Virus record (IMG/VR): IMGVR_UViG_3300007522_000039
Location: 1-35,253 of that record
DNA: 35,253 nt
Strand: one strand, 5' to 3'
DNA from: a virus
Shown here: positions 23,608 through 35,253 of the stretch, in pieces
How the letters are laid out: each line of letters begins with the position of its first letter
Position numbering within the stretch: the stretch's first letter is position 1
Translations under genes and position numbers: made by a program
The notes under the pieces: generated by a model
What the model saw: only the letters and a program-made list of their open reading frames with translations
The model's database searches: none
Told to the model about the DNA's origin: nothing

Positions 23608-25413
23608 TCAGATCCCCGCGTTCGGGTCGAACGGATCGACGGGCTGATCGGGGCGCTGACGCGCATCATCATCTTTGCCCAAAAGGCCGGGGATCGCGCT
23701 GAGCGGTATCGCGTGCGCCCGGCTCTGCAACGTCTCGAAGCGCAGCGGGTTGGTCTTTTGGCTCCCTGGCACACGCTGGGCCGCCTGCGACCAGCCGCCG
23801 TCTGCCCAGTGGGTGTCGCGATGCAACAGACCCAGCGTGGGGTTGCGGTTCGCGACCATCAGCTGCGCGCCATCGCCTTTCCCTTCCACTTTCAGGCCGT
23901 AGGCGGGCAGCAGATCACGGGCCGTCGCTCGATCGGGCTCGATGTTGTCCGGCAATATCCCGGCCGCGGCCAGCACCCATCTGCCTACGGTGTAGCGCCT
24001 GCCGCCGCGGTGCGCGTCCAGCGGCTGGCCCAGCAGGTGATTGAGCCAGCGGGCCCAGTCGGGCGATCGGTCGAGCTGGTCGGACACGTCCGAGGCGGTC
24101 AGCTTGGCGGTCCACATCGTCAGGCGATCGGGTCCGGGCGCATCTTCATGCATCACCAGATCGGCCATCGCCAGCAGCGTGCCGAATTGGTCCGCGCCGC
24201 GCGCGTTGTGGCCGGCGAGCGTCAACGCCTGGCGATACAGCTCCAGCGTCTCGTGATAGCGCGACCAGCCCTGCACCACGCGCGTGCGCAGCGCACGGCC
24301 GACCTTGCGCATCCGCGTCGGGCTGACGTTGGGCGGCGATTGCGTGCGGGGCAACGGCAGCAGCTCCAGCAGTGCCAGGCGCGACAGATCCTGATCCAGC
24401 ATGGGCGGCCGCAGAATGGAGCTGAACCCGAACACGTTGCGCACGGTGAAGCTGTGCGATTGGTGGTCTGTCGATCCTCGCAACACACGGCCGCCACTGG
24501 CGGCGACGCGCGCCAGACGGATGATGTCGCCCAGCCGCTTGCTGCCCGGCTCTGGCTCGGCCTCATCGATCAGCACCGGAATCGTCGACTGCCTGACCGT
24601 CGCGCGGATGCTCGGCTCGGTTAAATTCGGGGAATGGATCAGCGCGCCATGGCCGCCGATCACCTGTTCCATGATTTCCTGCAGCGTCGACTTGCCGGTC
24701 GCCGCGTCGCCGGTGATCCAGACCATCGGGCGCCACTTCAGCGCACCGCCGAAGATCGCCGCGACGATCCAGCCAAGCATCAGCCAGGCGTCGGTGTCGC
24801 CGCGCTCCCAGTTCCATGATCGCAGGATCTCCGACAGCTCGGCGCCCGGCTCGAAGTCCAGTTCGGATGATGGCAGCGGGCGCGGGATTGGCTCGAACGC
24901 CGGATAGACGAAGCCGTCATGCTCGCCCGGCATCAGCCACTTGCCGCCGATCAGCACGCGCCCGCCGCAATGCAGAATGAGCCCGCCGTCGTCATCGCGC
25001 CAGGCCCCGACGCCGCGCACACGTTCCTCGGCGTTCCACACACCTTTCTGCGAACAGGCGCGGGTCATCGCGCTGGCCAGCTTCTCCTGGTTCCAGCCGC
25101 TGATGTTCCCCTCTTTGTTGTGGGTGGGGAATTGGTATTCCAACAGCGCGCTGTTGCCGCCGTAGATCTTGCGCATCGTATCTTTGTCGTGCCGCGCCAC
25201 GGTGATCAGCTGGCCCAGCGTGTCCAGGTAAAAGCATTTCACGCCCAGCGTGCCCAGTGCGAGCGCAGGCGATCCGGCGAAAATCTCGCCCGGTTTGGTC
25301 GCGGTGTCAGCCTCGCCGCGCGGCTGCTCAGGCAGCGGCGGCGGGGCGGCGTTCATCTCGGCGCCCAGCAGGCGCAGCGTGGGGCGTTGCACCCCGTCTG
25401 CGTTCTCAGTCAT
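23608..25413 (-). CDS. AAA+ replicative helicase (phage D5/P4-like)
   Basis: The 601-residue protein contains an AAA+ ATPase core at ~200-400. Walker A is GDAATGKS (residues 235-242) and Walker B is VLIDEAE (280-286), followed by an arginine-containing region (LRGSTDHQSHSF). The N-terminal ~200 residues include a WNxEERVRGVGAWRDD segment seen in phage primase-linked helicases. The C-terminus ends in a disordered proline/aspartate-rich tail. It follows the Toprim primase gene with a 4-nt overlap, so the pair probably forms the phage primosome. It presumably loads host polymerase at the candidate origin just downstream. No polymerase gene is present. Confidence 0.85.
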   Translation of the reverse strand: MTENADGVQRPTLRLLGAEMNAAPPPLPEQPRGEADTATKPGEIFAGSPALALGTLGVKCFYLDTLGQLITVARHDKDTMRKIYGGNSALLEYQFPTHNKEGNISGWNQEKLASAMTRACSQKGVWNAEERVRGVGAWRDDDGGLILHCGGRVLIGGKWLMPGEHDGFVYPAFEPIPRPLPSSELDFEPGAELSEILRSWNWERGDTDAWLMLGWIVAAIFGGALKWRPMVWITGDAATGKSTLQEIMEQVIGGHGALIHSPNLTEPSIRATVRQSTIPVLIDEAEPEPGSKRLGDIIRLARVAASGGRVLRGSTDHQSHSFTVRNVFGFSSILRPPMLDQDLSRLALLELLPLPRTQSPPNVSPTRMRKVGRALRTRVVQGWSRYHETLELYRQALTLAGHNARGADQFGTLLAMADLVMHEDAPGPDRLTMWTAKLTASDVSDQLDRSPDWARWLNHLLGQPLDAHRGGRRYTVGRWVLAAAGILPDNIEPDRATARDLLPAYGLKVEGKGDGAQLMVANRNPTLGLLHRDTHWADGGWSQAAQRVPGSQKTNPLRFETLQSRAHAIPLSAIPGLLGKDDDARQRPDQPVDPFDPNAGI

Positions 25414-26615
25414 GCGTCGGCTCCCTCGCGCTCAGCATCCAGCGCCGCGCGCAGTGCGTCGTTTGCATCCTTGCCGCCGAACCGATTGCGCCAGACGCTG
25501 ACGGTCCGGCCCTCGCGGGCGAACCGATCGACGGCGCGATCGATGGCGGCCCGCTCCGGCTTGCCGGCGTCGTTGTCGGCGATGATCACCACCGATGTGA
25601 ATTGCGGGGGCAGCCGGATCTCGCGGATGTTGCCCAGATCCACAGCGGCGAACGCATACCAGGGCGTTCCGTCCCGCGGCTCGCCGGTCATGCGGTTGAT
25701 CACGCCGATCGACAGCGCGTCCTCGATCCCCTCGGCGATGTAGGCACGCGATCCTTGCGGCGCGCGCGACATCGGCACGGCGCCGCCGCGCGGGCCCAGG
25801 CCGCGGATCAGGCGGATGAACCCGCCTTTCTTGGTTCCGTAAACTTTTTTCGGGACAGGCACGGGGGCCTTGCCCCAGCTGCCATCGGGGCGCTGCGCCA
25901 GCCAAGTGCGATGCACGCCCCAGAACGGCACGCCGTCCTTGCCTGCCGGCCCGCCGATGGCCGTGACCATGCAGGGCCAGTCGCCTTCGATCACTTGGGC
26001 GTCGCGGATCACCTCGCCGGTGGCGCGGTCGATCTCGGCGCCCAGCTCGTGGCGATAGTGGAGCGATGGCGCGTATCGGATCGCGCGTGGTGCGCGGCCC
26101 AGACGGTCCAGCCCGACGCCGCGCCCGGCCAGATAGGCAGCGACAGGGGTGTCCTCGATCCGCTCGGCGCAGCGCATGAACAGCGCTTGAGCCTCGCCGC
26201 GCTTCTTGGCGGCCAGCGCTTCATGGTCGCGCGCATCGCGCTCGGCTTGCGCCTTGGCCTTGGCGACCTGACGCTGGCGCAGCTCGGCCTGCGCCGGCGT
26301 CTCGGCGTCCATGCCGAGGAAGGCGCGCGCCTCGATCAGCGCGCCCTTGCGGTCGCAGCCCAGCGCCAGCTGGATCAGGTCGAGCATGTCGCCGCCCGCT
26401 CCGCCCGCCTCATCGCGCCAGCGCCCCGCATAAGCGCCGTGCAGCGAGACGTGGAACGATCCGATCCGCTTGTCGTCGCGGCCCGGGTTGCAGCTCCACC
26501 AGCGCCCGCCGTTCAGGTGACCGTTCGGCGCATAGCGCTGCGCCACGTCCAGCGGGCGGGCCTGCAGCGCGTCCACGATCTCCTGAAAAGAAGGGAAGCG
26601 GGCCCGCGCGGTCAT
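25410..26615 (-). CDS. Toprim DNA primase
   Basis: The 401-residue protein carries a Toprim domain near its C-terminus. The conserved glutamate is in AYIAEGIEDALS (E295) and the acidic pair in VVIIADNDAGK (D347, D349), followed by GGKDANDAL. Residues ~35-100 (WWSCNPGRDDKRIGSFHV, then GGDMLDLIQLALGC) have the layout of a primase zinc-finger region, but the four zinc-binding cysteines/histidines are not there. A charged coiled-coil-like linker covers 105-150. The ATG at 26615 overlaps the preceding stop by 4 nt; a longer frame from 26696 would run into that gene. It should make primers for phage replication. Confidence 0.86.
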   Translation of the reverse strand: MTARARFPSFQEIVDALQARPLDVAQRYAPNGHLNGGRWWSCNPGRDDKRIGSFHVSLHGAYAGRWRDEAGGAGGDMLDLIQLALGCDRKGALIEARAFLGMDAETPAQAELRQRQVAKAKAQAERDARDHEALAAKKRGEAQALFMRCAERIEDTPVAAYLAGRGVGLDRLGRAPRAIRYAPSLHYRHELGAEIDRATGEVIRDAQVIEGDWPCMVTAIGGPAGKDGVPFWGVHRTWLAQRPDGSWGKAPVPVPKKVYGTKKGGFIRLIRGLGPRGGAVPMSRAPQGSRAYIAEGIEDALSIGVINRMTGEPRDGTPWYAFAAVDLGNIREIRLPPQFTSVVIIADNDAGKPERAAIDRAVDRFAREGRTVSVWRNRFGGKDANDALRAALDAEREGADA

Positions 26616-26962
26616 GGAAACAGCCACCGGCCAAGCTGTGACCAGCCCGACATCGGCACCGCTATCAGCATGAACAGGCAGGCGGTCCGCATCCATGCCT
26701 GATCGGTCGCGACGACGCGGGTCTTGGCGTAGCGCGCCGCGACAGCTGCCGTGTCGCGCTTGGCCCGTGCCAATTGCAGCTCGTCCGTCCAGAATTCCAG
26801 CTCATCGGCCAGCTCCAGCACGAACGGCACGGGAAGGATGACCATGCCGCTAGGGCCAAAGCCTTGCTGTGCGCAGGTGGCGCTGTCGCGCAGAAGCTGC
26901 ACGAACTCCGGCTCGGTCGCGCGCTCACGCCCGCGCTTGAGATATTCCAGCGATTGCGTCAT
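26612..26962 (-). CDS. Small protein with C-terminal membrane segment
   Basis: The 116-residue product begins with a charged helical part (MTQSLEYLKRGRERATEPEF). It contains PSGMVILPVPFVLELADELEFWTDELQLARAKRD and ends in one hydrophobic segment (ACLFMLIAVPMSGW, then LGRWLF). This suggests a tail-anchored inner-membrane protein. No family is recognised. Both ends overlap neighbours by ATGA, so it is co-translated with the primase. A host-interaction role for an early tail-anchored protein is possible but not shown. Confidence 0.7.
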   Translation of the reverse strand: MTQSLEYLKRGRERATEPEFVQLLRDSATCAQQGFGPSGMVILPVPFVLELADELEFWTDELQLARAKRDTAAVAARYAKTRVVATDQAWMRTACLFMLIAVPMSGWSQLGRWLFP

Positions 26963-27309
26963 GCCGCGTTGCTCCGCGCCATGTCTTCACGCCAGCGCTC
27001 AAGCGCCAGACCCGCGCGCACGCGCTGGATCTGCACCACTTGGCCGCCGATCTTCCAACGCGCGCGCGACCAGTCCGCAGATCGCGGCGACGCCAGCTCG
27101 GCCGTCGGCATCATCGCCAGCAGATCGCAAGCGGCGGCCAGATCGCGGATCACCGGGTGCGCGCGGGTGACATACGGCAGCAGATCCTGCAGATCCAGCT
27201 GATGCATGCGCACCAGCTGGACCTCGGGCGCATGCTCGGCCGCGATGGCGGACGCGATCGCGATCAACGCATGATCGGCAGGGCTCAGCGGCGGGGGCGT
27301 GGCGGTCAT
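26959..27309 (-). CDS. Early protein of unknown function
   Basis: The 116-residue soluble protein is helical and alanine-rich at the start (LSPADHALIAIASAIAAEH). Its middle reads MHQLDLQDLLPYVTRAHPVIRDLAAACDLLAMMPT and its end is basic (WREDMARSNAA). No motif of a known enzyme is visible. It lies between the Tad2-like gene and the membrane protein, with ATGA overlaps at both ends. Being in the immediate-early cluster, it may act on the host or regulate early genes, but nothing in the sequence shows which. Confidence 0.7.
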   Translation of the reverse strand: MTATPPPLSPADHALIAIASAIAAEHAPEVQLVRMHQLDLQDLLPYVTRAHPVIRDLAAACDLLAMMPTAELASPRSADWSRARWKIGGQVVQIQRVRAGLALERWREDMARSNAA

Positions 27310-27683
27310 CGGTTCGTCGCTTCGATGACGCGCCAGTCATCCGCCAGCATATCGGTTTGCGATGCCAGCCATGGGACCAGATCGCCGGTGACGGTCTGCA
27401 TGTAGATATAAGGCAGTGACATTTTCGAATGCCGGTCGGGACGCTGCAAATGCAGCCACATATCTTTGTCGTTCCATCCGGCGCGCGCCACGCTCTCGCC
27501 TGCCTTGAGCGCGTCGAGCGCATGGCCGAAGCTCAAGGCGTCGATCGGCTGATAGGCCGCTTCGAACACATCGCGAGGCGACCAAGATTCATATCCGTCC
27601 TCGTAGGTGCTAAAGCCGGGCTGCCCATCCCTTTCGAGTGGATAGGCGGTGATCCGTTTGGCGCCGTAATAGGTCCGTGTCAT
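27306..27683 (-). CDS. Tad2-like anti-Thoeris protein (DUF2829)
   Basis: The C-terminal 75 of 125 residues match the DUF2829/Tad2 pattern well: ALSFGHALDALKAGESVARAGW, then MWLHLQ, then LPYIYMQTVTGDLVPWLASQTDMLADDW. In known phages, Tad2 proteins form cages that bind and remove the cyclic ADP-ribose-type signal of Thoeris; some members also bind cyclic dinucleotides of CBASS. The first ~48 residues (YYGAKRITAYPLERDG, then YESWSPRDVFEAAYQP) form an added module often seen fused to this family in phages. The ATG at 27683 is supported by AAAGGAGCG upstream, and the start overlaps the previous stop by 4 nt. Activity is inferred from family only. Confidence 0.85.
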   Translation of the reverse strand: MTRTYYGAKRITAYPLERDGQPGFSTYEDGYESWSPRDVFEAAYQPIDALSFGHALDALKAGESVARAGWNDKDMWLHLQRPDRHSKMSLPYIYMQTVTGDLVPWLASQTDMLADDWRVIEATNR

Positions 27684-28009
27684 TTGCAGTCGCTCCTTTG
27701 CTGCCAGTCTGCGTAGCCTGCAGCCGCAAGCGCCGCTTGCGTCCGCGCGGCATGATCCGCGGCGTCTTCCTGCGCGGCTTCCGCGATCACCTGCAGATCT
27801 TCCAGCAGCGCATCGGCCGCGTTCTGCAGGTTGCCGGCCTCGACCAGCTCGCGGAACCGCCCGACCACGCCGGCGATGTCCTCGCGATCGGGGACCACGG
27901 CAAGACGCAGCTCGTCCAGGTCCTTCACATCGCGCCGCGTGATCGACCTGGCGCGGGCTTTCAACGCGCACGACATCGCGCGCAGACCGAACCCGACAGC
28001 CGCGATCAT
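27680..28009 (-). CDS. Early acidic helical protein of unknown function
   Basis: The 109-residue product has a hydrophobic start (MIAAVGFGLRAM), a basic patch (CALKARARSITRR) and a strongly helical acidic remainder (ELVEAGNLQNAADALLEDLQVIAEAAQEDAADHAARTQ). No family is recognised. I chose the ATG at 28009 because it forms a 4-nt overlap with the preceding gene; a TTG at 28066 is possible but weaker. The start lies just downstream of a terminator-like hairpin, so expression may need transcription to pass it. Confidence 0.62.
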   Translation of the reverse strand: MIAAVGFGLRAMSCALKARARSITRRDVKDLDELRLAVVPDREDIAGVVGRFRELVEAGNLQNAADALLEDLQVIAEAAQEDAADHAARTQAALAAAGYADWQQRSDCK

Positions 28010-28290
28010 GCGGGCGCCAAAAAGAAAAGACCCCGACGCGAGGTGAAGGCGCCGGGGCAAGTGCAATCGATCCGCAGCGCTTCACGGACCGAATGCAGGC
28101 GGCGCGCCAGGGCGCGCGCGGCCATCTCGGAAAAGGATCGCGGCGAGACGATGTTGACCCAGCGTCTCGCCGCTGCCGTGCCGACCGGGGAGGATACGGG
28201 CACGGACGCGGCCGGTCCGGCGTCTGCAACGCCAGGGAGGAACGCGCGACATGCGAACCGGCCGTGTTGGATGGGGCGGGCGGCGGTCAT
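28006..28290 (-). CDS. Small protein following the Cro-like gene
   Basis: The 94-residue frame starts by ATGA overlap with the Cro-like stop and ends by ATGA overlap with the next start. It contains GRFACRAFLPGVADAG, then SFSEMAARALARRLHSVREALRIDCTCPGAF, and ends in LFFLAPA. The helical stretch and a CTC pair look protein-like, but no family is recognised. Its last codons overlie the hairpin and T run of the terminator-like element, an arrangement that would let ribosomes disturb termination. Confidence 0.55.
   Translation of the reverse strand: MTAARPIQHGRFACRAFLPGVADAGPAASVPVSSPVGTAAARRWVNIVSPRSFSEMAARALARRLHSVREALRIDCTCPGAFTSRRGLFFLAPA
28019..28057 (-). terminator. Rho-independent-like terminator after the Cro-like region
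   Basis: On the minus strand CCCCGGCG pairs with CGTCGGGG (8 bp, one G-U) around an 11-nt loop, and TCTTTTCTTTTT follows at once. This is the best intrinsic terminator signature in the window. It lies early in the long leftward unit, in the same relative place as lambda tR1 after cro. Confidence 0.6.
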
Positions 28291-28592
28291 GCCGCCACCT
28301 GCTCGGGAGATTGCGCGTCGCGGCGGGCGGCGAACGCGACCAGCAGCGCCAGCTCCTTCTCGCTGGCGCCGAAGATCAGATGCTCGGGCGTCAGCGGGAT
28401 GCCATGCGCTCGCGCATGGGCCAGCAGCTTGCGCATGATGTTGGCGCTGGGAAGGTCGCCCGCCGCGCGGCCCTTGACAGCGCGACGCCAGACATAGGGC
28501 GACTTCGGCTTCATCCCGCAGGCTGCAGCGGTCGCCTCGATGCCGCCGAACAGGCGCAGCACAACGTCAGTTGGTGATTGGTGATCGGTCAT
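28287..28592 (-). CDS. Cro/YdaS-like DNA-binding regulator
   Basis: The 101-residue protein is transcribed divergently from the repressor gene. Residues ~5-60 (VVLRLFGGIEATAAACGMK, then VWRRAVKG, then LPSANIMRKLLAHARAHG) form a helix-turn-helix of the YdaS/Cro type. The second half (LTPEHLIFGASEKELALLVAFAARR) is a helical extension. It probably binds the intergenic operators and shuts off the repressor to commit to lytic growth. The ATG at 28592 has no clear ribosome-binding site, so a very short or leaderless transcript is possible. A -35/-10-like pair (TTGACG, 17 nt, CAATAT) ends close to the start. Confidence 0.75.
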   Translation of the reverse strand: MTDHQSPTDVVLRLFGGIEATAAACGMKPKSPYVWRRAVKGRAAGDLPSANIMRKLLAHARAHGIPLTPEHLIFGASEKELALLVAFAARRDAQSPEQVAA

Positions 28593-28685
28593 GGGGCGGA
28601 TATTGCGCGGGCAGTATCACGGCGTCAATCAAAAAGCTCAAAATTCTATCTTACTATATCGGTGACTACCGATCATCTGCCACAG
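28593..28685. promoter_or_regulatory. Divergent promoter/operator region (genetic switch)
   Basis: This 93-bp, AT-richer gap separates the divergent Cro-like and repressor genes. Leftward, TTGACG and CAATAT are spaced by 17 nt and end next to the Cro start. Rightward, the run TTACTATATC just before the repressor supplies a -10-like box without a good -35, as expected for a promoter needing activation. The only perfect palindrome lies next to the rightward box. Confidence 0.6.
28658..28673. promoter_or_regulatory. Operator-like palindrome ATCGGTGACTACCGAT
   Basis: Six-base arms (ATCGGT/ACCGAT) flank a 4-bp spacer directly at the rightward -10-like sequence. A related half-site (ATTGGTGA) occurs inside the start of the Cro-like gene, near 28574-28581. 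This is a likely binding site for the repressor, the Cro-like protein or both. Confidence 0.55.
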
Positions 28686-29300
28686 ATGGATGCACACTGG
28701 TTTAAAGCGCGCTCACGCGCGAAGGGTTTGACGATCATCGACCTCGGCGATGTGATCGGTCGCGATCGGTCTGCCGTGTCTCGGTTCTACACGGGCCGAC
28801 AGGTCATGACGTTCGACCAGGCGCGTAAGATTGCCGATGCGCTGGAAGAACCGTTGCCGGAGGTGCTGGCGAGGGCCGGCATCGCCAACGCACGCGAGGC
28901 GCAGCAGCTCACGCCCGGGTTTTCGGACAGCGACGCCGCCCTCTGGGTGCCAGCGGTGGGGGTGGATCGATCCTGCGATGATCAGATCGCCGACGCGCTT
29001 GGGCGCAAGCCGGGCGTTGATGTTTGGGAGGTTCGTGGCAGGTCCCTGTCGCTGATCGGTTATCTTCCCGGCGACCGCATTTTGGTCGACACCGGCGCCG
29101 CAGATCGTGCGCTGTCAGGCGATGCGGTGATCGCACAGGTCTATGATTGGGCGCAGGGATCAGCCAAGACACTGCTGCGCCAGCTCCAAACGCCGGTGCT
29201 TGTGTCACATTCCCCAGATGCCGGGGATTGGAAGGCGCATGTGGTCGATCAAGATAGGGTCATCATCAAGGGCGTGGTGCGCGCGTCTTGGCGGCGATGA
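28686..29300 (+). CDS. CI/LexA-type phage repressor with S24 peptidase domain
   Basis: The 204-residue protein keeps the prophage silent. Residues ~12-60 form a helix-turn-helix (GLTIIDLGDVIGRDRSAVSRFYTG, then FDQARKIADALE). A likely Ala-Gly cleavage site follows at 64-65 (RAGIA). Residues 88-204 form an S24-type domain with the catalytic serine in VRGRSLSLIGYLPGDRILVD (S120) and the lysine at K161 (SAKTLLRQL), a spacing of 41 that fits LexA-like proteins. SOS-triggered self-cleavage is therefore likely. I chose the ATG at 28686; GTG at 28662 would add eight residues but lies inside the operator. The 3' end overlaps an opposite-strand gene by 35 nt. Confidence 0.85.
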   Translation: MDAHWFKARSRAKGLTIIDLGDVIGRDRSAVSRFYTGRQVMTFDQARKIADALEEPLPEVLARAGIANAREAQQLTPGFSDSDAALWVPAVGVDRSCDDQIADALGRKPGVDVWEVRGRSLSLIGYLPGDRILVDTGAADRALSGDAVIAQVYDWAQGSAKTLLRQLQTPVLVSHSPDAGDWKAHVVDQDRVIIKGVVRASWRR

Positions 29301-29769
29301 TTTTTGCGTAGATTGGTGGATGCAGAAGCTTCTCCAGTCCCCAGACTACGAATAGCGCCCACCCAAAATTGAATAACAATAGCGCGATGTTTGCAAATTC
29401 ATTGTTGAGAGCAAAGCTTGATAACGCACGGAAATCTTTTGACCACAGTAATGAAAAAAATGGCCCCAAGCCGCCTGAAATAAAAAATGTAGGCACTAAA
29501 ATATATGTAAGTATTTTATTTGTTAGCTGTTTTGCGCTGTAATCTAAATATTTCTTGTATCTTTGATTGTCTTGGTATCTCCTTTCACCGAACTCTGACA
29601 ACTTTCTTTGCGCAGCATCAGCAGCCCATTGGGCATGGCGGGCGTCAGTGATCGCCTCCAAGTTTTTCGGCTCGCGCGCACGCACGATCCATGCCTGGGC
29701 CAGGCGCGCTTCTGCGGCGCTCTTCTCGGCCATCAATATCGTGAAAATGTCGTGCTGATTTTCCTGCAT
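29266..29769 (-). CDS. Two-span membrane protein, candidate lysogenic-conversion gene
   Basis: The 167-residue product has a soluble helical N-terminus (AEKSAAEARLAQAWIV, then ARHAQWAADAAQRKLSEFGERRYQDNQRYKKYL). Two membrane segments follow (LTYILVPTFFISGGLGPFFSLLW and FANIALLLFNFGWALFVVWGL), and the tail is basic. It is encoded against the lysogeny genes, and the DNA at 29300-29630 is clearly more AT-rich than elsewhere, a sign of recent acquisition. Place and strand suggest expression from the prophage. Superinfection exclusion or defence is a reasonable guess, and its architecture is like small two-span effectors, but I recognise no family. The start is uncertain: ATG at 29769 or 29733, or GTG further upstream. 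A much longer frame to 30558 is a shadow. Confidence 0.65.
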   Translation of the reverse strand: MQENQHDIFTILMAEKSAAEARLAQAWIVRAREPKNLEAITDARHAQWAADAAQRKLSEFGERRYQDNQRYKKYLDYSAKQLTNKILTYILVPTFFISGGLGPFFSLLWSKDFRALSSFALNNEFANIALLLFNFGWALFVVWGLEKLLHPPIYAKIIAAKTRAPRP

Positions 29770-29826
29770 GGCGAATGTTACGACGCACGTCTCGATCACG
29801 AAAGATCGAAATTTGATACTCACCTC

Positions 29827-29856
29827 TTGACATGTATCAGTAATCACCACTAACTT
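29827..29856 (+). promoter_or_regulatory. Probable promoter of the rightward integration operon
   Basis: A consensus -35 (TTGACA, 29827-29832) is followed after 17-18 nt by CTAACT/TAACTT at about 29850-29856. It is correctly placed for the gene at 29917 and the chain of overlapping genes ending with the integrase. It lies in the AT-rich gap 29770-29916, which holds no other gene on either strand that I can support. Confidence 0.55.
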
Positions 29857-29916
29857 AAACCCATCGGCGCACATCGCACCCTGCGGTGGCGCACATCCAG
29901 ATGGAGCTTGCACGCC

Positions 29917-30189
29917 ATGCCCTTCCCCCGTCCGATCCAGCTTCCCCCCGTCTCCGATCGCCAGCTGTCCCGCTACATCGCCGTCGCCCATGACCTGCGC
30001 GATGAATGCGCCGATCCCGTCGCGGCGGAGCATATGGCGCATGCGCTGCCCGAGCTGCTTGAGGAATTGAACGGCTACCGCCGCGCCGTCGCCTCGATCC
30101 GCGCTCGCGCCGGGACCATCCATGCCGCAGGTCCGAACGTGGTGTCGCTGCCCGCGCCGCGCCAGTCGCCGGCGCCGATCTGTGCCTGA
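29917..30189 (+). CDS. Small protein, first gene of the integration operon
   Basis: The 90-residue product starts PFPRPIQLPPVSDRQLSRYIAVAHDLRDE and continues with a helical HMAHALPELLEELNGYRRAVASIRARA, ending in a proline-rich tail. No family is recognised; it is soluble and helical. A GGAG motif lies about 10 nt before the ATG at 29917. A TTG at 29908 is too close to that motif. The 3' end overlaps the tiny membrane gene that follows by 8 nt. Confidence 0.65.
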   Translation: MPFPRPIQLPPVSDRQLSRYIAVAHDLRDECADPVAAEHMAHALPELLEELNGYRRAVASIRARAGTIHAAGPNVVSLPAPRQSPAPICA

Positions 30190-30286
30190 TCCCGCGCTCG
30201 TCGTCGCCGCCGCAATGGTCTGGACCTCGGGTCTGATCTGCGGCGGCGCCCTCGCCTGGATGATTTTGCATCGGAACATCAGATGA
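30182..30286 (+). CDS. 34-residue membrane peptide
   Basis: A GTG-initiated frame begins 8 nt inside the preceding gene and ends with a 4-nt ATGA overlap on the excisionase-like gene. The product is one hydrophobic span (ALVVAAAMVWTSGLICGGA, then WMIL) with a short basic C-terminus (HRNIR). Both coupled ends and the clean membrane span support a real gene. Function is unknown. Confidence 0.6.
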   Translation: MPDPALVVAAAMVWTSGLICGGALAWMILHRNIR

Positions 30287-30546
30287 CCGACCCGATATTC
30301 GTTCCCACTCGCGCCGTCGCCGCGCTGCTGGAAATGTCGCCCGGCGAATTCCTGCGCCGCCGTGATGATCTCCAGCGCGATCATTCTTTTCCGGCGCCGC
30401 TGCCCTGGCGCGGCCTGCCCTACGGGTGGCGACGGGCCGAGGTGGTGGCGTGGCTCGACGCCGACGCGGTGCGCCCCGCGCCGCCGATCGACGCGGCGCT
30501 GATCGCCTCCGGGCGCGTCGCCATGTTGGCGGAGGCGCGGCGATGA
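30283..30546 (+). CDS. Excisionase/AlpA-like DNA-binding protein
   Basis: The 87-residue protein has the short winged-helix layout of excisionases and AlpA regulators. A helix-turn-helix start (PTRAVAALLEMSPGEFLRRRDDL) is followed by FPAPLPWRGLPYGWRRAEVVAWLDAD, matching the FPxPxxxGxxxxWxxxEVxxWL pattern. It lies three genes before the integrase in the same coupled operon. It probably directs prophage excision or regulates integration. Both ends overlap neighbours by ATGA. Confidence 0.72.
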   Translation: MTDPIFVPTRAVAALLEMSPGEFLRRRDDLQRDHSFPAPLPWRGLPYGWRRAEVVAWLDADAVRPAPPIDAALIASGRVAMLAEARR

Positions 30547-30773
30547 TCGCGCAAGCATCGAGCCATGCCCATCTCGACGGCAGCTTTGAGCTGGTGCCGC
30601 ATGCCAATGGCGCGCGCATCATCCGGCGCCCGACCCTCAAGCGCCTGCATGGCGACATCCCGCACTTGGTCGCCGGCTTCGAAGTGTGCCGGCTGTCGGA
30701 TCACGCGCCCGAAGGCTTCGCCGATCAGCTGCTGGGGCTGCTCAACGATGCGCACGCATGGGGGCAGATATGA
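30543..30773 (+). CDS. Small protein of unknown function
   Basis: The 76-residue product contains LDGSFELVPHANGARIIRRPTLKRLHG, then HLVAGFEVCRLSDHAPEGFADQLLGLLNDAHAWG. It looks like a compact alpha/beta protein, without a recognised family or membrane segment. Start and stop both show ATGA overlaps, so it belongs to the integration operon. An earlier in-frame start near 30426 would cover the whole second half of the excisionase-like gene and was not used. Confidence 0.65.
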   Translation: MIAQASSHAHLDGSFELVPHANGARIIRRPTLKRLHGDIPHLVAGFEVCRLSDHAPEGFADQLLGLLNDAHAWGQI

Positions 30774-31300
30774 CCGTGCTGTTCAGGGATGAGCGGGCGG
30801 CGATGCGTGCCGCTGCGCTGGCCGAACTGTCGACCGGGGTGATGCCCAACGTGGCCGCCGCCACCGTGGACTTGACGGTCGCGCAGATGCTCGGGCTGTT
30901 CGATGTCGTGCGTGGCCATGTCACCTCGGACGTGGCCGCGATGCTGGTGGCGCGGTTCGACGGCGGCGAGCCGCGACGCTTGACGATGCAGCGGATCAGG
31001 ATCTCGCGCATCGTGCTGAACGATGTGCTGCGCGCGCATCGCTCGGAGGCTTTCGCCGCTGCGCTGCACGTCGAGGGCAAGTCGCGCAGCGACATGATCG
31101 GCAGCTATCAGCTGCCGCCGGGCGTGGTCGATGCCGCGATCTGGGCGGGCGGCGGTGCGGAGCCGCCGCGCGTGCGGCTGTTGTCACGCTCGGGCTTCTC
31201 CTCAATCAGCACGGACAACACGCCCGCGGCTCTGGCTGACGCGCGCGCGCGCATGGCCGCCCGGTTCGGAGCGGACGGCTGGACCGAGGCGACGTTCTGA
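30770..31300 (+). CDS. Protein of unknown function before the integrase
   Basis: The 176-residue protein is mainly helical at its N-terminus (ERAAMRAAALAELSTGVMPNVAAATVDLTVAQMLGLFDVV). It then has GEPRRLTMQRIRISRIVLNDVLRAHR, a loop with SYQLPPGVVDAAIW, and a C-terminal helix (TPAALADARARMAARFG). No catalytic motif is visible. It is coupled to the previous gene by ATGA and to the integrase by TGATG. Its conserved place suggests a helper of integration or operon regulation, but this is inference only. Confidence 0.65.
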   Translation: MTVLFRDERAAMRAAALAELSTGVMPNVAAATVDLTVAQMLGLFDVVRGHVTSDVAAMLVARFDGGEPRRLTMQRIRISRIVLNDVLRAHRSEAFAAALHVEGKSRSDMIGSYQLPPGVVDAAIWAGGGAEPPRVRLLSRSGFSSISTDNTPAALADARARMAARFGADGWTEATF

Positions 31301-32451
31301 TGGCCGTGCGTCCGATGCCCGACGCGCCCGCCCGCGTGCGCCAGCGTCAGCGCGCCGCCGGTGGTTGGCGGATCTGGTGGGAACCCGAGGCCGCCGTGCG
31401 CGAGCTGGGGTTCGCGGCGGTGGAGCTGGACGTGCAGCGCCTCACCTGGTCCGCGCGCGAGGCGTCGCGCCTGAACAAGCTGGTGGCTCAGTCCCGCGCA
31501 GGCGTGGCGCCGACCGCGGCGACGGGAGGCGCGCGCACGGTGGCGGCCCTGATCGCCGCGTTCACCGCCTCCCCGGCGTGGGGGGAGTTGAGCCCCGACA
31601 CCCAGCGCGATTATCGCGGGGGCTTTCGCATCATCGATCAGAAGTGGGGCGGGTGGCAGGTCGTGCTGTTCCGGCGCGGCATCGTGGTGGAATGGTTCGA
31701 GGCGCTGCACCGCGACCGCGGCGCCTATCAGGCGAAGTCGATCATGCGCAAGCTCTCGCTGCTGATGTCCTACGCGGAGCGGCGCGAGTGGATAGAGGCG
31801 AACCCATGCCTGCGCCTGCGCATCCCGACGCCGGCGCCGCGCGATCGCGTGGTGCAATGGCATGAATTCGACGCGCTGCTGTCCGCCGCCGCGCAGCTCG
31901 GGCACGACGGCATGGCGCTGGCCATCGCGATCGGCTGGTTCACCGGCCAGCGGCGGCGCGACATCCTGACCGCGACGGCCGGGCAGGTCGGGGCCGATGG
32001 CGTCTGGCGGTTCACCAGGTCCAAGGCAGCGACCGGATCTGCGCAAGCGCCCGGCGCCATCAAACTTCACAGCGAGCTGCGCCCGCTGGTCCAGGCGCGC
32101 CTCGATCTGGCCGCGACCGACGCCACGCCGTTGTGCTTGGACGCCGCCACCGGCGTCGCGCTCAGCGACGATCTGGCTGGCAAGCGGTGGGCCGCCGTGC
32201 GCGACGCCGCCGCGATCGCTTGCCCTTCCGTCATCGATGTTCAGTTCCGCGACCTTCGCCGCAGCTGGGCGCACTGGTCTCGCGAAGGCGGCGCGTCCGA
32301 TCGTGACCGCGCCGACGGCATGGGCAACCAGTCGGACCGCAACGCACGGCTGTCGCAGACCTACAACCCGCCGACGATGGCCGGCGCCACGCGCGCCGTC
32401 GATGCAGTCCGGCGTCCGATCGCGCCCAAGCGCGCGGCGGGTGGCGCGTGA
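31300..32451 (+). CDS. Tyrosine-family integrase
   Basis: The 383-residue protein integrates and excises the prophage. The N-terminal ~170 residues hold the arm-binding and core-binding domains (AALIAAFTASPAWGELSPDT, then YQAKSIMRKLSLLMSYAERREW). The catalytic domain has the first arginine in TGQRRRDIL (R218), a lysine near 242, the second arginine in FRDLRRSWAHW (R320) and the nucleophile in SQTYNPPT (Y355). The usual histidine before the second arginine is replaced (R318), as in some phage integrases. It starts one base inside the previous stop, and attP lies 230 bp downstream. Confidence 0.9.
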   Translation: MAVRPMPDAPARVRQRQRAAGGWRIWWEPEAAVRELGFAAVELDVQRLTWSAREASRLNKLVAQSRAGVAPTAATGGARTVAALIAAFTASPAWGELSPDTQRDYRGGFRIIDQKWGGWQVVLFRRGIVVEWFEALHRDRGAYQAKSIMRKLSLLMSYAERREWIEANPCLRLRIPTPAPRDRVVQWHEFDALLSAAAQLGHDGMALAIAIGWFTGQRRRDILTATAGQVGADGVWRFTRSKAATGSAQAPGAIKLHSELRPLVQARLDLAATDATPLCLDAATGVALSDDLAGKRWAAVRDAAAIACPSVIDVQFRDLRRSWAHWSREGGASDRDRADGMGNQSDRNARLSQTYNPPTMAGATRAVDAVRRPIAPKRAAGGA

Positions 32452-32558
32452 TGCGCCCGCGCAGACAGCGCCGCTCCTGGTGCAGCGGCTGGTGGCTGGT
32501 GCCCGGGCTGGTGCTGGGCTGCGGCTTTTGGATCGTGGCTGTCTTGGCGCTGCTGTGA
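32451..32558 (+). CDS. 35-residue membrane peptide after the integrase
   Basis: The ATG shares one base with the integrase stop (TGATG). The product has a strongly basic start (RPRRQRRSWCSGWW) and then one hydrophobic span (LVPGLVLGCGFWIVAVLALL) reaching the C-terminus. This is the topology of a small inner-membrane peptide with cytoplasmic N-terminus. Function is unknown. Confidence 0.55.
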   Translation: MRPRRQRRSWCSGWWLVPGLVLGCGFWIVAVLALL

Positions 32559-32595
32559 GTGCCAGCGACCGCGCACAGCCATCCCTGACCGACAC

Positions 32596-32635
32596 GTCCG
32601 ACTGTCCGACTCGGAAGGCAGTCGGACGGTCGGAC
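32596..32635. repeat. Four GTCCGAC repeats forming a 16-bp inverted repeat
   Basis: GTCCGACTGTCCGACT and AGTCGGACGGTCGGAC form arms of 16 bp with one T-G mismatch and an 8-nt spacer. Each arm itself holds two copies of GTCCGAC at 8-bp spacing. The element lies midway between integrase and attP. It could be integrase/excisionase arm sites or a terminator for the rightward operon, though no T run follows. Confidence 0.6.
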
Positions 32636-32683
32636 AACGCAAAACGGGCCCAGCGTGTAAGCGCTTGGACCCCTTACGTTTTC

Positions 32684-32729
32684 TGGTGAGCGGGGTGGGT
32701 ATCGAACCCACGACCCGCTGATTAAAAGT
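32684..32729 (-). other. attP core: 3' half of tRNA-Lys(UUU)
   Basis: Read on the minus strand, this 46-bp stretch runs from the anticodon loop (CTTTTAA, anticodon UUU) through the 3' anticodon stem, variable loop, T arm (GTGGG-TTCGATA-CCCAC), acceptor strand CCCGCTC, discriminator A and CCA. Upstream bases (AAGTAA) cannot complete the anticodon stem TCAGC, so this is not a full tRNA. Phages that integrate in a tRNA gene carry exactly such a 3' fragment, which restores the gene after insertion. With the integrase next door this is the attachment core. Confidence 0.88.
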
Positions 32730-32786
32730 TACTTAGATTTTCTTGCATAACAACAGCTTAACAGATTGGCGATTAAGGCAGCGCCA

Positions 32787-33092
32787 TCATTCCGCCGCAC
32801 CGCACATCGCTGCGCGGCGCGGCGCATCAACCAAGCCAAGCCCCGCCACACAGATCGCGATCGCGTTGACGCGATCCACATCTGCCGCGCCTTGTGGGTC
32901 CGCCGCATCGAGCGCTGACCAGCCGGCGGCAGACAGTCGCAGCGGCAGCAGCTCGCGCCCATCCTCGGCCACATAGACTGTCGCGTCAGTCGTCGCGCGT
33001 GGTGATGTCGCGGAGCTGGTCGCGCATGCCTGGATCAGCGACGCGCCCAGCAACAGCGCGAGCGCGTTGCGCCAGCGCCGCGCCTTGTTCAT
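32787..33092 (-). CDS. Outer-membrane lipoprotein, probable o-spanin
   Basis: The 101-residue protein has a basic start (NKARRWRN), a hydrophobic signal (ALALLLGASL) and a lipobox ending in LIQAC, with the lipid-modified cysteine at residue 23. The mature part is 79 residues, alanine/aspartate-rich. It begins within the preceding small gene in another frame and runs beyond it, the overlapping arrangement known for Rz/Rz1 spanins. It would link to the inner-membrane partner and disrupt the outer membrane at lysis. The mature part is not proline-rich as in lambda Rz1, so the role is inferred. It is the last gene of the leftward block. Confidence 0.65.
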   Translation of the reverse strand: MNKARRWRNALALLLGASLIQACATSSATSPRATTDATVYVAEDGRELLPLRLSAAGWSALDAADPQGAADVDRVNAIAICVAGLGLVDAPRRAAMCGAAE

Positions 33093-33207
33093 GGGCGCGC
33101 AGCAGCTCGGCCGCGCGCCCCGCATCATAGACGCCGCTGTCATGGGCGCGGGCCGCGAAGACATTCGCGAGCCGCACCAGCGCCAGCGCAAGCTGCGCAT
33201 AGATCAC
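32986..33207 (-). CDS. Small lysis-cassette protein, possible i-spanin
   Basis: The 73-residue product has a short hydrophobic start (MIYAQLALALVRLANVFAARA) followed by a charged helical region (DAGRAAELLRAHEQGAALAQRARAVAGRV). An N-terminal anchor plus periplasmic helix fits an i-spanin, and the lipoprotein gene begins inside it in another frame. The hydrophobic part is short and contains an arginine, so the assignment is tentative. Its start overlaps the holin-like stop by 4 nt. Confidence 0.55.
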   Translation of the reverse strand: MIYAQLALALVRLANVFAARAHDSGVYDAGRAAELLRAHEQGAALAQRARAVAGRVADPGMRDQLRDITTRDD

Positions 33208-33425
33208 GCCTTGCCGAGCTTGATAGGCTGGCGCGTGACCAGGCGCAGCACGATGTTCGCGACGATGACGACGGCCGCGGCCAGCTGCGCCTGCGTGTCA
33301 GCGTCCAGCCCGAGGTCCAGCCCAAGCGCGCCCGCGATGACAGCGGCCGCGGCGATGACGTTGACCCACAAGGTCTTGCTTGCCCAGAATGGCTTTGCGT
33401 CTTCCATGTTCTGCTCTCCGATCAT
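33204..33425 (-). CDS. Holin-like membrane protein
   Basis: The 73-residue protein has a short charged start (GEQNMEDAKPFWASKT) and two hydrophobic segments (LWVNVIAAAAVIAGALGL and TQAQLAAAVVIVANIVLRLV) joined by an acidic turn, ending in a basic tail. Size and topology match class II holins and the gene follows the endolysin, so it probably forms the membrane lesion that releases it. The ATG at 33425 overlaps the amidase stop by 4 nt. Longer in-frame starts lie inside the amidase. Confidence 0.7.
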   Translation of the reverse strand: MIGEQNMEDAKPFWASKTLWVNVIAAAAVIAGALGLDLGLDADTQAQLAAAVVIVANIVLRLVTRQPIKLGKA

Positions 33426-34099
33426 GCGGTTTTCGCCGCGGTTGTTGCGACCTGAACGGCCGCGAAAAGCGGCGCCGTGGGTGACGCCGCGATCTGGGTG
33501 ACGCGATGGCGCGCGAGGAACGCCGTCGCGGCGCCTTGCGTGCGCGGCCCCCAATCTCCGTCGATGGCGCCGGGCGCATAGCCGAGGCCGGACAGCGCCA
33601 GCTGCAGCGTGCGCACGTCCTCGATGCGGGGGGCAGGCTGGCGCAAGGTGTCGCCGCGCGATGGCAGGATCTCCGCCAGGTGCAGCGCCACGCGAAAGCC
33701 CGGGCACGCCTTGGCTGCATAATCGTTGTGGCCGGTCACACGCGCGCCAGGATAGCTCGCCAGCAGCTCGCCCATCAGCACGCGCAGCGCGGTCAGCTGC
33801 GCCGGGGTGTAGTGATCCACGGGCGCATCATCGGCGCACGATCCAAAGCCGCCGACCAGGCACACGCCGATGCTGTTGGCGTTGTGGCCATAGACGTGCG
33901 CGCCGACATGCGGTTCGGGGCGGCCCGGTTCGCGCGTGCCATCGCGGCGGATGACCCAATGGTATCCGATACCCGACCAGCCATTGGACCGATGCCACCC
34001 GTCGATCTCCGCCGCGCCGATGTCCTGGTCCGGCCGCGTCGCGGCGCAGTGCAGAATGATTTCGTTGATGCGGCGCATCGCCGGCGTTCTCTCGGTCAT
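33422..34099 (-). CDS. Endolysin: T7 lysozyme-type N-acetylmuramoyl-L-alanine amidase with binding domain
   Basis: The 225-residue enzyme cuts the amide bond between muramic acid and the peptide of the cell wall. Residues ~10-145 match T7 lysozyme closely: zinc ligands H17 (IILHCAAT), H123 (VTGHND) and C131 (KACPGF), with catalytic-type Y45 (GIGYHW) and K129. In T7 these are H17, H122, C130, Y46 and K128. The C-terminal part (~160-200, VRTLQLALSGLGYAPGAIDGDWGPRTQGA) is a peptidoglycan-binding repeat that T7 lysozyme lacks. No signal peptide is present, so export depends on the holin. Both ends overlap neighbours by ATGA. Confidence 0.93.
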   Translation of the reverse strand: MTERTPAMRRINEIILHCAATRPDQDIGAAEIDGWHRSNGWSGIGYHWVIRRDGTREPGRPEPHVGAHVYGHNANSIGVCLVGGFGSCADDAPVDHYTPAQLTALRVLMGELLASYPGARVTGHNDYAAKACPGFRVALHLAEILPSRGDTLRQPAPRIEDVRTLQLALSGLGYAPGAIDGDWGPRTQGAATAFLARHRVTQIAASPTAPLFAAVQVATTAAKTA

Positions 34100-34413
34100 G
34101 GCTCTGGCTCCTTGCGGCGGGCGGTGGCTTGGTCGATCTCCATGCGCGCGACGCGGGCATCGGTGCGCTCCGTCACGCGCAGGATCAATTCAAGGCGCGT
34201 GGCAATCACGGCCACGTCGCGCTCTGCCGCCGTCTGGCGCGCCTCAAGCACGCCTAGCCGTGCGCTGTCGCGGTCTTGGCGGCGGATCAGCTCGTCCAAA
34301 GCTCCGACGCGGACGCCGGCATAGATGCCCGCCACAACCAGCGCGGACAGGATCGTCCAAGCGAGGGCCTTGGAAATTGTGATGCCGCGTTCGGTGTTTT
34401 CGATTCCGGTCAT
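34096..34413 (-). CDS. Membrane-anchored coiled-coil protein of the lysis cassette
   Basis: The 105-residue protein has a short cytoplasmic start, one membrane span (ALAWTILSALVVAGIYAGV, ~16-34) and a long charged helix (LDELIRRQDRDSARLGVLEARQTAAERDVAVIATRLELI) that looks like a coiled coil. Such proteins stand before endolysins in many phages and are called holin-associated or XhlA-like. This one could also be the inner-membrane spanin instead of the 73-residue candidate. Both ends overlap by ATGA. Confidence 0.68.
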   Translation of the reverse strand: MTGIENTERGITISKALAWTILSALVVAGIYAGVRVGALDELIRRQDRDSARLGVLEARQTAAERDVAVIATRLELILRVTERTDARVARMEIDQATARRKEPEP

Positions 34414-34484
34414 GCGGCTCCCTCTGCTGCGGTGCGCCCAACCATGACGACAGCAATGGCGATCAGGTTGCGGAAAAGGATCAT
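34410..34484 (-). CDS. 24-residue hydrophobic peptide
   Basis: The frame runs from an ATG overlapping the preceding stop (ATGA) to a stop overlapping the next ATG. It encodes MILFRNLIAIAVVMVG followed by RTAAEGAA, a minimal membrane peptide. The only support is the double coupling and the clean hydrophobic stretch. It may alternatively be a leader whose translation couples the two larger genes. Confidence 0.45.
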   Translation of the reverse strand: MILFRNLIAIAVVMVGRTAAEGAA

Positions 34485-34780
34485 ACCCGCACCCACCCGG
34501 AGACGCCCGGCTCCCCTACGTTTTCCGCTGTGGTCGAAACCCAAGCAAATCCGGCATGAAAGCGCTTTGCTCCGACCGGAAAGCCGTCTTCACCGGGCTG
34601 GGCCCAAGCGTGAAAGGTTTCCCCATCTTGGAAGTGCCCGCCGATAATGGGGCTTTCGGTGCCAAGTTCCCACCGTCCGGCGGGGAGGTAGGATTGTGGA
34701 AGTGTCGTGCCGAGGGCAAGCACCGCTGCGCCAATGCAAACGCCGCTGGCGTCAAGCTGATATGCGATAAGCTGGGTCAC
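34481..34780 (-). CDS. Small protein between tail and lysis genes
   Basis: The 99-residue product is beta-rich with many aromatic residues (PAGRWELGTESPIIGGHF, then GETFHAWAQPG, then KRFHAGFAWVSTTAENVGEPGVSGWVRV). The end resembles small carbohydrate-binding modules found at phage tail tips, but I cannot assign a family. The GTG at 34780 gives a 4-nt GTGA overlap with the tail gene and lies six bases after GAGGTGG. A GTG at 34789 is part of that site and unlikely. Probably a tail accessory or chaperone. Confidence 0.62.
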   Translation of the reverse strand: MTQLIAYQLDASGVCIGAAVLALGTTLPQSYLPAGRWELGTESPIIGGHFQDGETFHAWAQPGEDGFPVGAKRFHAGFAWVSTTAENVGEPGVSGWVRV

Positions 34781-35253
34781 CTGCGCCACCTCACGTATTG
34801 GATTGCGGTGCTACCGTTCGCACCGGGCGCAGTGCTACCGTCCCTCCCGCTTCCTCCGCCGCCGGAGCCTGTCCCCGTCGCGCCCGCTGTTCCAGTGGTT
34901 AACTCGATACCCCCGTCACCACCGACACCAGATCCGCCCGCCCCCTTAACTCCGCCCTCGGCAGCCGATTTGTTCGCACCACCGCCGCCGCCTCCCGCGT
35001 AGAATGCAGATGTGCCCGTGATTGTGCTGGCAATGCCCAGCCCACCCGGCCCAGCGACGTTATCGTCTCCTCCAACCCCGCCCGCAGTCCCCACGCCTCC
35101 TGCACCACCACCACCACCGGACGTCCTCCACCCGGCGGCTCCGTTGCCTCCTGCAAATCCTACGCCGTCAGATGCGATAGAGGCTCCTGCAAGCCCGCCG
35201 CTGCCGCCACCCCCACCGCCGGAGCCGCCATTCAGACCAGCGCCACCAGCGCC
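34777..35253 (-). CDS. Glycine-rich tail fibre/adhesin protein, C-terminal part (continues at 1-590)
   Basis: This 158-codon stretch completes the protein starting at 590; the frame is continuous when base 35110 is joined to base 1. It is dominated by glycine blocks separated by short variable loops (FAGGNGAAGWRTSGGGGGAGG, FYAGGGGGGANKSAAEGG, TGSGGGGSGRDG) and ends in AIQYVRWRR. The loops between glycine runs are what vary in known polyglycine adhesins. The stop overlaps the next gene by 4 nt. Confidence 0.8.
   Translation of the reverse strand, partial: GAGGAGLNGGSGGGGGGSGGLAGASIASDGVGFAGGNGAAGWRTSGGGGGAGGVGTAGGVGGDDNVAGPGGLGIASTITGTSAFYAGGGGGGANKSAAEGGVKGAGGSGVGGDGGIELTTGTAGATGTGSGGGGSGRDGSTAPGANGSTAIQYVRWRR
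35111..35253. repeat. Right copy of the 143-bp terminal repeat
   Basis: It matches 1-143 apart from seven clustered substitutions at 35125-35139. It codes NGAAGWRTSG where the left copy codes NGPAAYRTSG. The copy is the overlap produced by a circular or redundant genome; the mismatched patch records either two alleles or an end-of-contig assembly error. Confidence 0.93.

Follow-up and report, generated by a model that had tools for sequence, protein, structure and literature searches.

Why does a viral genome carry the 3' half of a bacterial tRNA-Lys gene next to an integrase gene, and does this half point to the site and the host of integration? The window analysed here is an entire virus record of 35,253 bases. 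Its first and last 143 bases (positions 1-143 and 35111-35253) are identical at 136 of 143 positions, the final 114 being exact up to the contig end. Judged from this overlap, the genome is probably closed and excised, with a length of about 35.1 kb; the overlap falls within a repetitive glycine-rich gene, however, and is not proof. If closed, the genome would carry the tRNA half as a free attP and not as a host junction. No DNA nearly identical to positions 25000-35253 was found in the phage collection. The elements considered first are the following.

32684-32729, minus strand: attP common region, tRNA-Lys(UUU) positions 31-76 with the encoded CCA and without the 5' half.
31300-32451, plus strand: gene for a tyrosine integrase of 383 aa, oriented toward the att site (PHROG_1 integrase, E 1.2e-25).
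30283-30546, plus strand: gene for a putative excisionase, or recombination directionality factor, of 87 aa (weak match to PHROG_66 'excisionase and transcriptional regulator', E 5.7e-4).
28578-29300, plus strand: candidate prophage repressor with an N-terminal helix-turn-helix (PHROG_4 transcriptional repressor, E 3.9e-12).

On the minus strand the 46 bases of 32684-32729 read ACTTTTAATCAGCGGGTCGTGGGTTCGATACCCACCCCGCTCACCA. They comprise, in order, a single base of the 5' anticodon stem (its last), the anticodon loop CTTTTAA with anticodon UUU, the 3' anticodon stem, a 5-base variable loop, a T arm with all its pairs, the 3' acceptor strand, A73 and CCA. A degenerate pattern for the tRNA-Lys 3' half matches the window only at this place, and none of 100 shuffled sequences; the second-best ungapped match of the window to the 46-mer reaches 25/46. 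ARAGORN calls no tRNA gene in the whole window, where both a complete tRNA and the 5' half of tRNA-Lys are absent. In Rfam searches of the window and the att region the half gene gives no tRNA match, the one sub-threshold match being Plastid-ycf2 (E 0.36). The initial annotation, which had described this segment as a tRNA-Lys(UUU) 3' half with anticodon loop, T arm, acceptor and CCA but no 5' half, was thus exact in both coordinates and content. Six hybrids were assembled in silico from the phage 3' half and the 5' halves of six complete tRNA-Lys genes of bacteria, and all were called tRNA-Lys(ttt). This test is weak because five of the 5' halves are identical, leaving only two distinct hybrids, and because the sixth, with the 5' half of genome G337 and two acceptor mispairs, was called as well.

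The integrase gene ends 232 bp from the CCA end of the tRNA half, and an amidase gene lies on the opposite side of the att site. Pfam and NCBIfam searches gave no integrase match for the 31300-32451 product. The best PDB match of its structural model (mean pLDDT 84, pTM 0.66) is full-length lambda Int (1z1b_A, Foldseek E 1.1e-9 over 371 columns), with a whole-chain TM of only 0.36-0.39 and about 16% identity; the catalytic core 1ae9_B gives a TM of 0.74 by target length. Judged by the fold of this model, the product is a lambda-type tyrosine integrase with predicted N-terminal, core-binding and catalytic domains. Residues R218, K242, R320 and Y355, which we take from their motifs to be the catalytic Arg, Lys, Arg and Tyr, are invariant in 12 aligned family integrases. 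Tyrosine recombinases have two further catalytic-site residues that are usually His; at these two positions all 12 sequences carry R317 (motif QFRDLRR) and N343 (motif GN). The putative excisionase has relatives (35%) directly ahead of two integrases of Albimonas donghaensis. The candidate repressor, searched as 28620-29297, also matches Pfam HTH_31 at E 2.1e-5, below the cut-off of that profile. The window terminase and portal have distant relatives (25-33% among the matches listed) in podovirus-type phages, e.g. BcepC6B and Pelagibacter phages, which we take to be of podovirus morphology.

A relative integrated in A. donghaensis provides the arrangement expected of a phage that uses this site. 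On contig NZ_FNMZ01000001.1 (genome G001), a complete tRNA-Lys(UUU) gene at 344977-345051 and a bare 3' half at 306486-306531 lie on the same strand, 38.4 kb apart, and form 46-bp direct repeats, one of them within the complete gene. The prophage integrase (339315-340427) faces the complete tRNA, as the integrase of the window faces its att site. Of 21 proteins of the window used as queries, 18 have a counterpart in this prophage, in conserved order, with identities of 66-67% for terL, 62% for the portal, 56% for the major capsid protein and 52% for the integrase; the repressor, a 204-aa ORF before int and the amidase are without a match. Integration at tRNA-Lys had been predicted from the window alone, with a search for prophages flanked by a direct repeat of the 46-mer proposed as a check; the prediction is borne out here, by a syntenic relative and not by the window phage itself. 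A second family integrase (301201-302301) is found beyond the bare 3' half, so that two elements lie in tandem at this tRNA-Lys gene. The outer one looks truncated, since no further att copy occurs past its integrase (240-306 kb).

Together these data indicate that the 46-mer is almost certainly the attP common part of a temperate, podovirus-like phage of Rhodobacterales, whose adjoining integrase would act on attP and on the host tRNA-Lys(UUU) gene, recombining the two at the anticodon stem-loop. The stem would supply the inverted core sites and the loop the overlap:

32722-32728, minus strand: anticodon loop CTTTTAA, the 7-bp overlap in which crossover is predicted, as judged by aligning the phage and A. 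donghaensis genes and by the anticodon stem-loops of the family targets.

Phage and A. donghaensis host sequences diverge from one base past the loop on its 5' side, which places the probable crossover in the loop. As for the stem as inverted core sites, among 23 distinct att sites of the integrase family a YTNNTAA loop is followed by TCAG in 13 and by TCAA in 8; the His and Arg(ACG) sites differ. Insertion of the window phage would then leave a hybrid tRNA gene (host 5' half and phage 3' half) next to the integrase and, at the opposite end, the host 3' half that it displaces. The carried half would in this way let the phage insert without breaking the host tRNA-Lys gene.

The host was sought through the tRNA sequence. 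Neither genome_contigs nor viral_contigs yielded the exact 46-mer, in a search from which records very near the window were possibly excluded. With position 44 left free, five matches were found in four genomes of genome_contigs, Cereibacter ovatus, C. johrii, Luteovulum (now Cereibacter) azotoformans and A. donghaensis, all Paracoccaceae of the Rhodobacterales. Four of the five are complete tRNA-Lys(UUU) genes and the fifth is the bare direct repeat bounding the A. donghaensis prophage. Position 44 is thus the single mismatch between the phage and the tRNA-Lys(UUU) of Albimonas, Cereibacter and L. azotoformans. Among 390 Rhodobacterales genomes, seven match the 46-mer with one or two mismatches and none exactly; genome G333 has the G of the phage at position 44, but a T-stem pair is changed. 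No lysogen of the window phage was seen in the genomes searched. The host is very probably a Rhodobacterales bacterium, as judged from these sequence matches, and its species was not found. The view that the host could be traced from this sequence therefore holds down to the order, all matches being Paracoccaceae, and fails below it, where neither a genome with the exact sequence nor a lysogen was found. An uncultured phage genome can in this manner be assigned to a host order and to a precise predicted insertion site.

Two other genomes, G233 (G233:C21:331500-346851; L044, L047, L063) and G116 (C4 and C28; L045, L048), each carry two tRNA-Lys 3' ends, one of which is not called as a complete tRNA. 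No family integrase was detected in either at E <= 1e-50, and other elements possibly occupy the same gene.

Does the integrase family as a whole favour tRNA-Lys? A family integrase (E <= 1e-50) is present in 7 of the 390 Rhodobacterales genomes. The terminase (E <= 1e-60, 56-67% identity) is present in six genomes, all of them among these seven. In 385 genomes of the class, the terminase limit is passed only by A. donghaensis (67%) and by two others at 41%. In the six genomes besides A. donghaensis, the tRNA by the integrase is Lys(UUU) in G292 and G337, Arg(UCU) in G239 and Thr(UGU) in G224 and G348, while no tRNA gene was found near the family integrase of G363. The G292 and G337 integrases are 41% identical to that of the window, and the complete tRNA-Lys(UUU) gene adjoins them. 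At locus L004 (integrase 48%) a tRNA-Lys(CUU) 3' half lies 569 bp past int. Viral contigs add Asn(GUU), His(GUG) and Arg(ACG) as targets, the isotypes being taken from the anticodons. The wider family is therefore no predictor of tRNA-Lys, since other genomes of the order use tRNA-Arg, tRNA-Thr or none that could be found; as far as sequence can tell, the tRNA-Lys target is predicted by the att sequence and the nearest relatives. A third family integrase of A. donghaensis (G001:C28:132582-133724) lies 3.7 kb from a complete tRNA-Lys(CUU) gene.

The integrase tree (24 family rows of known target and two distant rows) groups the window with the A. donghaensis-type integrases (support 100/99) and next with L067 (91/81), all of which are tRNA-Lys users. 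Targets are clustered on this tree: seven changes suffice in total, for a mean of 14.3 after shuffling and a value as low in 0 of 200 shuffles. Lys alone needs four changes on the tree, although its users may yet share a single origin.

Among 46 viral family loci with an integrase identity of at least 36% (L064-L107, L121, L127), 19 have a tRNA 3' end downstream of the integrase. The other 27, L095 (53%) included, show no such end, the sequence available past the integrase match being between 4 bases and 9.5 kb long; in L065, one of these 27, the tRNA sits just past the record end. The scan omitted L113-L120, L122-L126 and L128-L142, among them L132, whose 52% identity extends only over residues 3-60.

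The sequences on both sides of the tRNA half carry further conserved elements; the IHF-like sites among them were scored against the IHF consensus YAANNNNTTGATW.

32748-32760, minus strand: IHF-like site on the phage side of the core, at -31, TAAGCTGTTGTTA, one mismatch to the consensus.
32658-32670, minus strand: weak IHF-like site between CCA and the arm array, at offset 13 past CCA, GTCCAAGCGCTTA, three mismatches.
32596-32635, no strand assigned: candidate integrase sites of the arm type (P'-like), with GTCCGA units +49 and +57 past CCA, inverted units at +76 and +84, and one degenerate unit in between.

The phage-side flank was compared over 11 viral sites, leaving out L099 (near-identical to L098) and the sites with a host tRNA half on the 5' side; L066 was kept, even though a complete tRNA-Lys (L016), its 5' half unusual, is called there by ARAGORN. 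The best IHF-like match falls exactly at -31 in 8 of these 11 flanks, window included. L098 has its second-best match there and L076 has TAAGTAACTGAAT, with two mismatches, by eye, which brings the -31 site to 10 of the 11 flanks (one by eye), L066 being without it. A match with at most one mismatch anywhere in the 60 bases occurs in about 7% of shuffled flanks. Between CCA and the array, the best match lies at offset 12 or 13 on the same strand in 13 of 27 family loci, the window among them, and a site with at most one mismatch is found in 12 of the 27, versus about 3.6% of shuffles; the window's own site has three. These IHF-like sites may correspond to the bending sites of a lambda-like attP.

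The array follows CCA in the direction of the integrase and has the form GTCCGAcnGTCCGAnnncGTCCGAGTCGGAC. It was counted over 27 family sites with a tRNA end, of which 23 are distinct (flanks less than about 85% alike). At least three GTCCG/CGGAC units occur in the 130 nt past CCA in 22 of the 23 distinct sites, covering five tRNA isotypes, and in 18 of 2958 control tiles taken from the same loci away from att; for at least four units the figures are 19/23 and 2/2958. None of ten other tRNA genes used as controls has two or more units, although the second A. donghaensis integrase is only 4.6 kb away from one of the ten (tRNA-Arg, L032). The units begin at +47-50, +55-58, +65-68 and +73-76 in 20, 18, 15 and 17 of the distinct sites, respectively. 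The unit pair GTCCGNNNGTCCG is found twice in the window, both times inside the array (chance mean 0.28). In L036 and L104 the array is shifted by 21-22 bases, about two helical turns, and L064 fails the array test with two units. No tRNA end was found for the arrays of L081, L097, L101 and L121, which stand outside these counts. The distant integrases of L108, L109 and L110 (28-31%) have tRNA ends and no array, and L111 and L112 have neither; the array thus seems confined to the closer integrase family.

This array may represent the arm-type sites of a lambda-like attP. In bacteriophage lambda the attP layout comprises a core, IHF sites and clustered arm-type sites. The window resembles it in the full-length Int fold match and, at the sequence level, in its core, IHF-like sites and clustered candidate arm-type sites. 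Its array is farther from the core than that of lambda, because the target is a tRNA gene and the tRNA half intervenes. It is conceivable, if rather doubtful, that the fragment is attP while the array binds an excisionase, a repressor or a host regulator, or belongs to a terminator; the palindrome GTCCGAGTCGGAC could fold into a hairpin or be recognized by a dimeric regulator. Against this, the position of the array is tied to the tRNA end and not to the integrase gene, the spacing being kept even where that gene is 2-8 kb off. Moreover, the last base of the unit is concerted within some arrays (GTCCGC in L083, L093 and L106; GTCCGT in L085 and L086; GTCCGG in L060), though mixed in others. 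No report of the GTCCGA array was found in open-access papers, which says little about print at large.

With the array read as arm-type sites, a more general picture takes shape, which we are somewhat inclined to accept. A single integrase lineage, seen in Rhodobacterales, would have kept a fixed attP scaffold (the IHF-like site at -31 and GTCCGA arm units near +48, +56, +66 and +74) even as its tRNA target shifted between Lys(UUU), Lys(CUU), Asn, Thr, Arg and His, the anticodon stem-loop serving as the core each time. Together with the concerted last base of the arm unit in some arrays, this would mean that target choice and arm recognition evolve separately, in a way readable from sequence. 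An array at a near-fixed distance past the tRNA CCA would also be a signature marking attP across the integrase family. Related integrases that use different tRNA genes with one scaffold form a ready data set on how integrases change target; for specialists, the part worth pursuing may be that the att scaffold is conserved while the tRNA target changes.

Phages often carry tRNA genes, and the presence of a half gene only could suggest that the fragment is what is left of a decayed tRNA gene of the phage and has no part in integration. This is highly improbable: the fragment starts at the anticodon stem, stops exactly at CCA and adjoins an integrase, and the same layout is common to relatives, one of which is integrated at tRNA-Lys in A. 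donghaensis. Scarcely credible is a tRNA-dependent lysogeny, in which the phage supplies a tRNA to replace the host one that is broken on integration, for although the target isotype is that of the mycobacteriophage case as given in the relevant part of that report (PMC10865867), ARAGORN finds no tRNA gene in the window, hence no phage-encoded complete tRNA of the target isotype, and the shared part extends to CCA, which would give a complete hybrid gene.

The 46-mer is almost certainly the attP common part of a temperate phage predicted to insert at a host tRNA-Lys gene, a well known kind of site. It is an ordinary tRNA attP whose anatomy is well resolved. Sinorhizobium meliloti belongs to an order other than Rhodobacterales. 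The section on its tRNA-Lys(CUU) integration hot spot describes a 46-bp att at the 3' end of the gene (PMC11476347). A tRNA-Lys target, an att of 46 bp and an alphaproteobacterial host are shared with the window, whereas the isoacceptor and the order are not. For mycobacteriophage Boilgate, the part of the report dealing with attP and attB-4 gives a 43-bp common core that is the 3' half of tRNA-Lys-TTT, with five single-base differences from the host, where the window has one to the nearest genomes found (PMC10865867). There too, a tyrosine integrase adjoins the core and putative arm-type sites flank it; unlike the case of the window the host is actinobacterial (PMC10865867). In the Islander collection 2083 of 3919 islands are anticodon-centred, with a complete tRNA at one end, a displaced 3' fragment at the other, a tyrosine integrase inside and tandem arrays known; from the portion of that paper describing them, the window phage does not differ in principle (PMC4383910). 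Podovirus-type prophages of Paracoccus carry tyrosine integrases and are inserted in tRNA-Thr(TGT) and other genes (PMC6536676). Members of the present family also use tRNA-Thr(UGU), while the window phage is predicted to use tRNA-Lys; the pertinent passages describe no arm sites (PMC6536676).

Several minor observations concern the neighbouring loci. The outer tandem element of A. donghaensis (L021/L064, NZ_FNMZ01000001.1 301201-306531), apparently truncated, has a degenerate arm array, and the array at the tRNA-Lys(CUU) gene of the same genome (L036, 18835-18910) lies 22 bp nearer the tRNA than usual. The distant integrases of L108 and L110 adjoin tRNA-Lys(CUU) 3' halves, with no array. Finally, six viral contigs (L007, L008, L010, L013, L014, L015) share a tRNA-Lys 3' half (ACTTTTAATCATGTGG...) and a similar 3' flank; the GTCCGA array is absent from the 60 flank bases shown, and these contigs perhaps represent another tRNA-Lys-using lineage.
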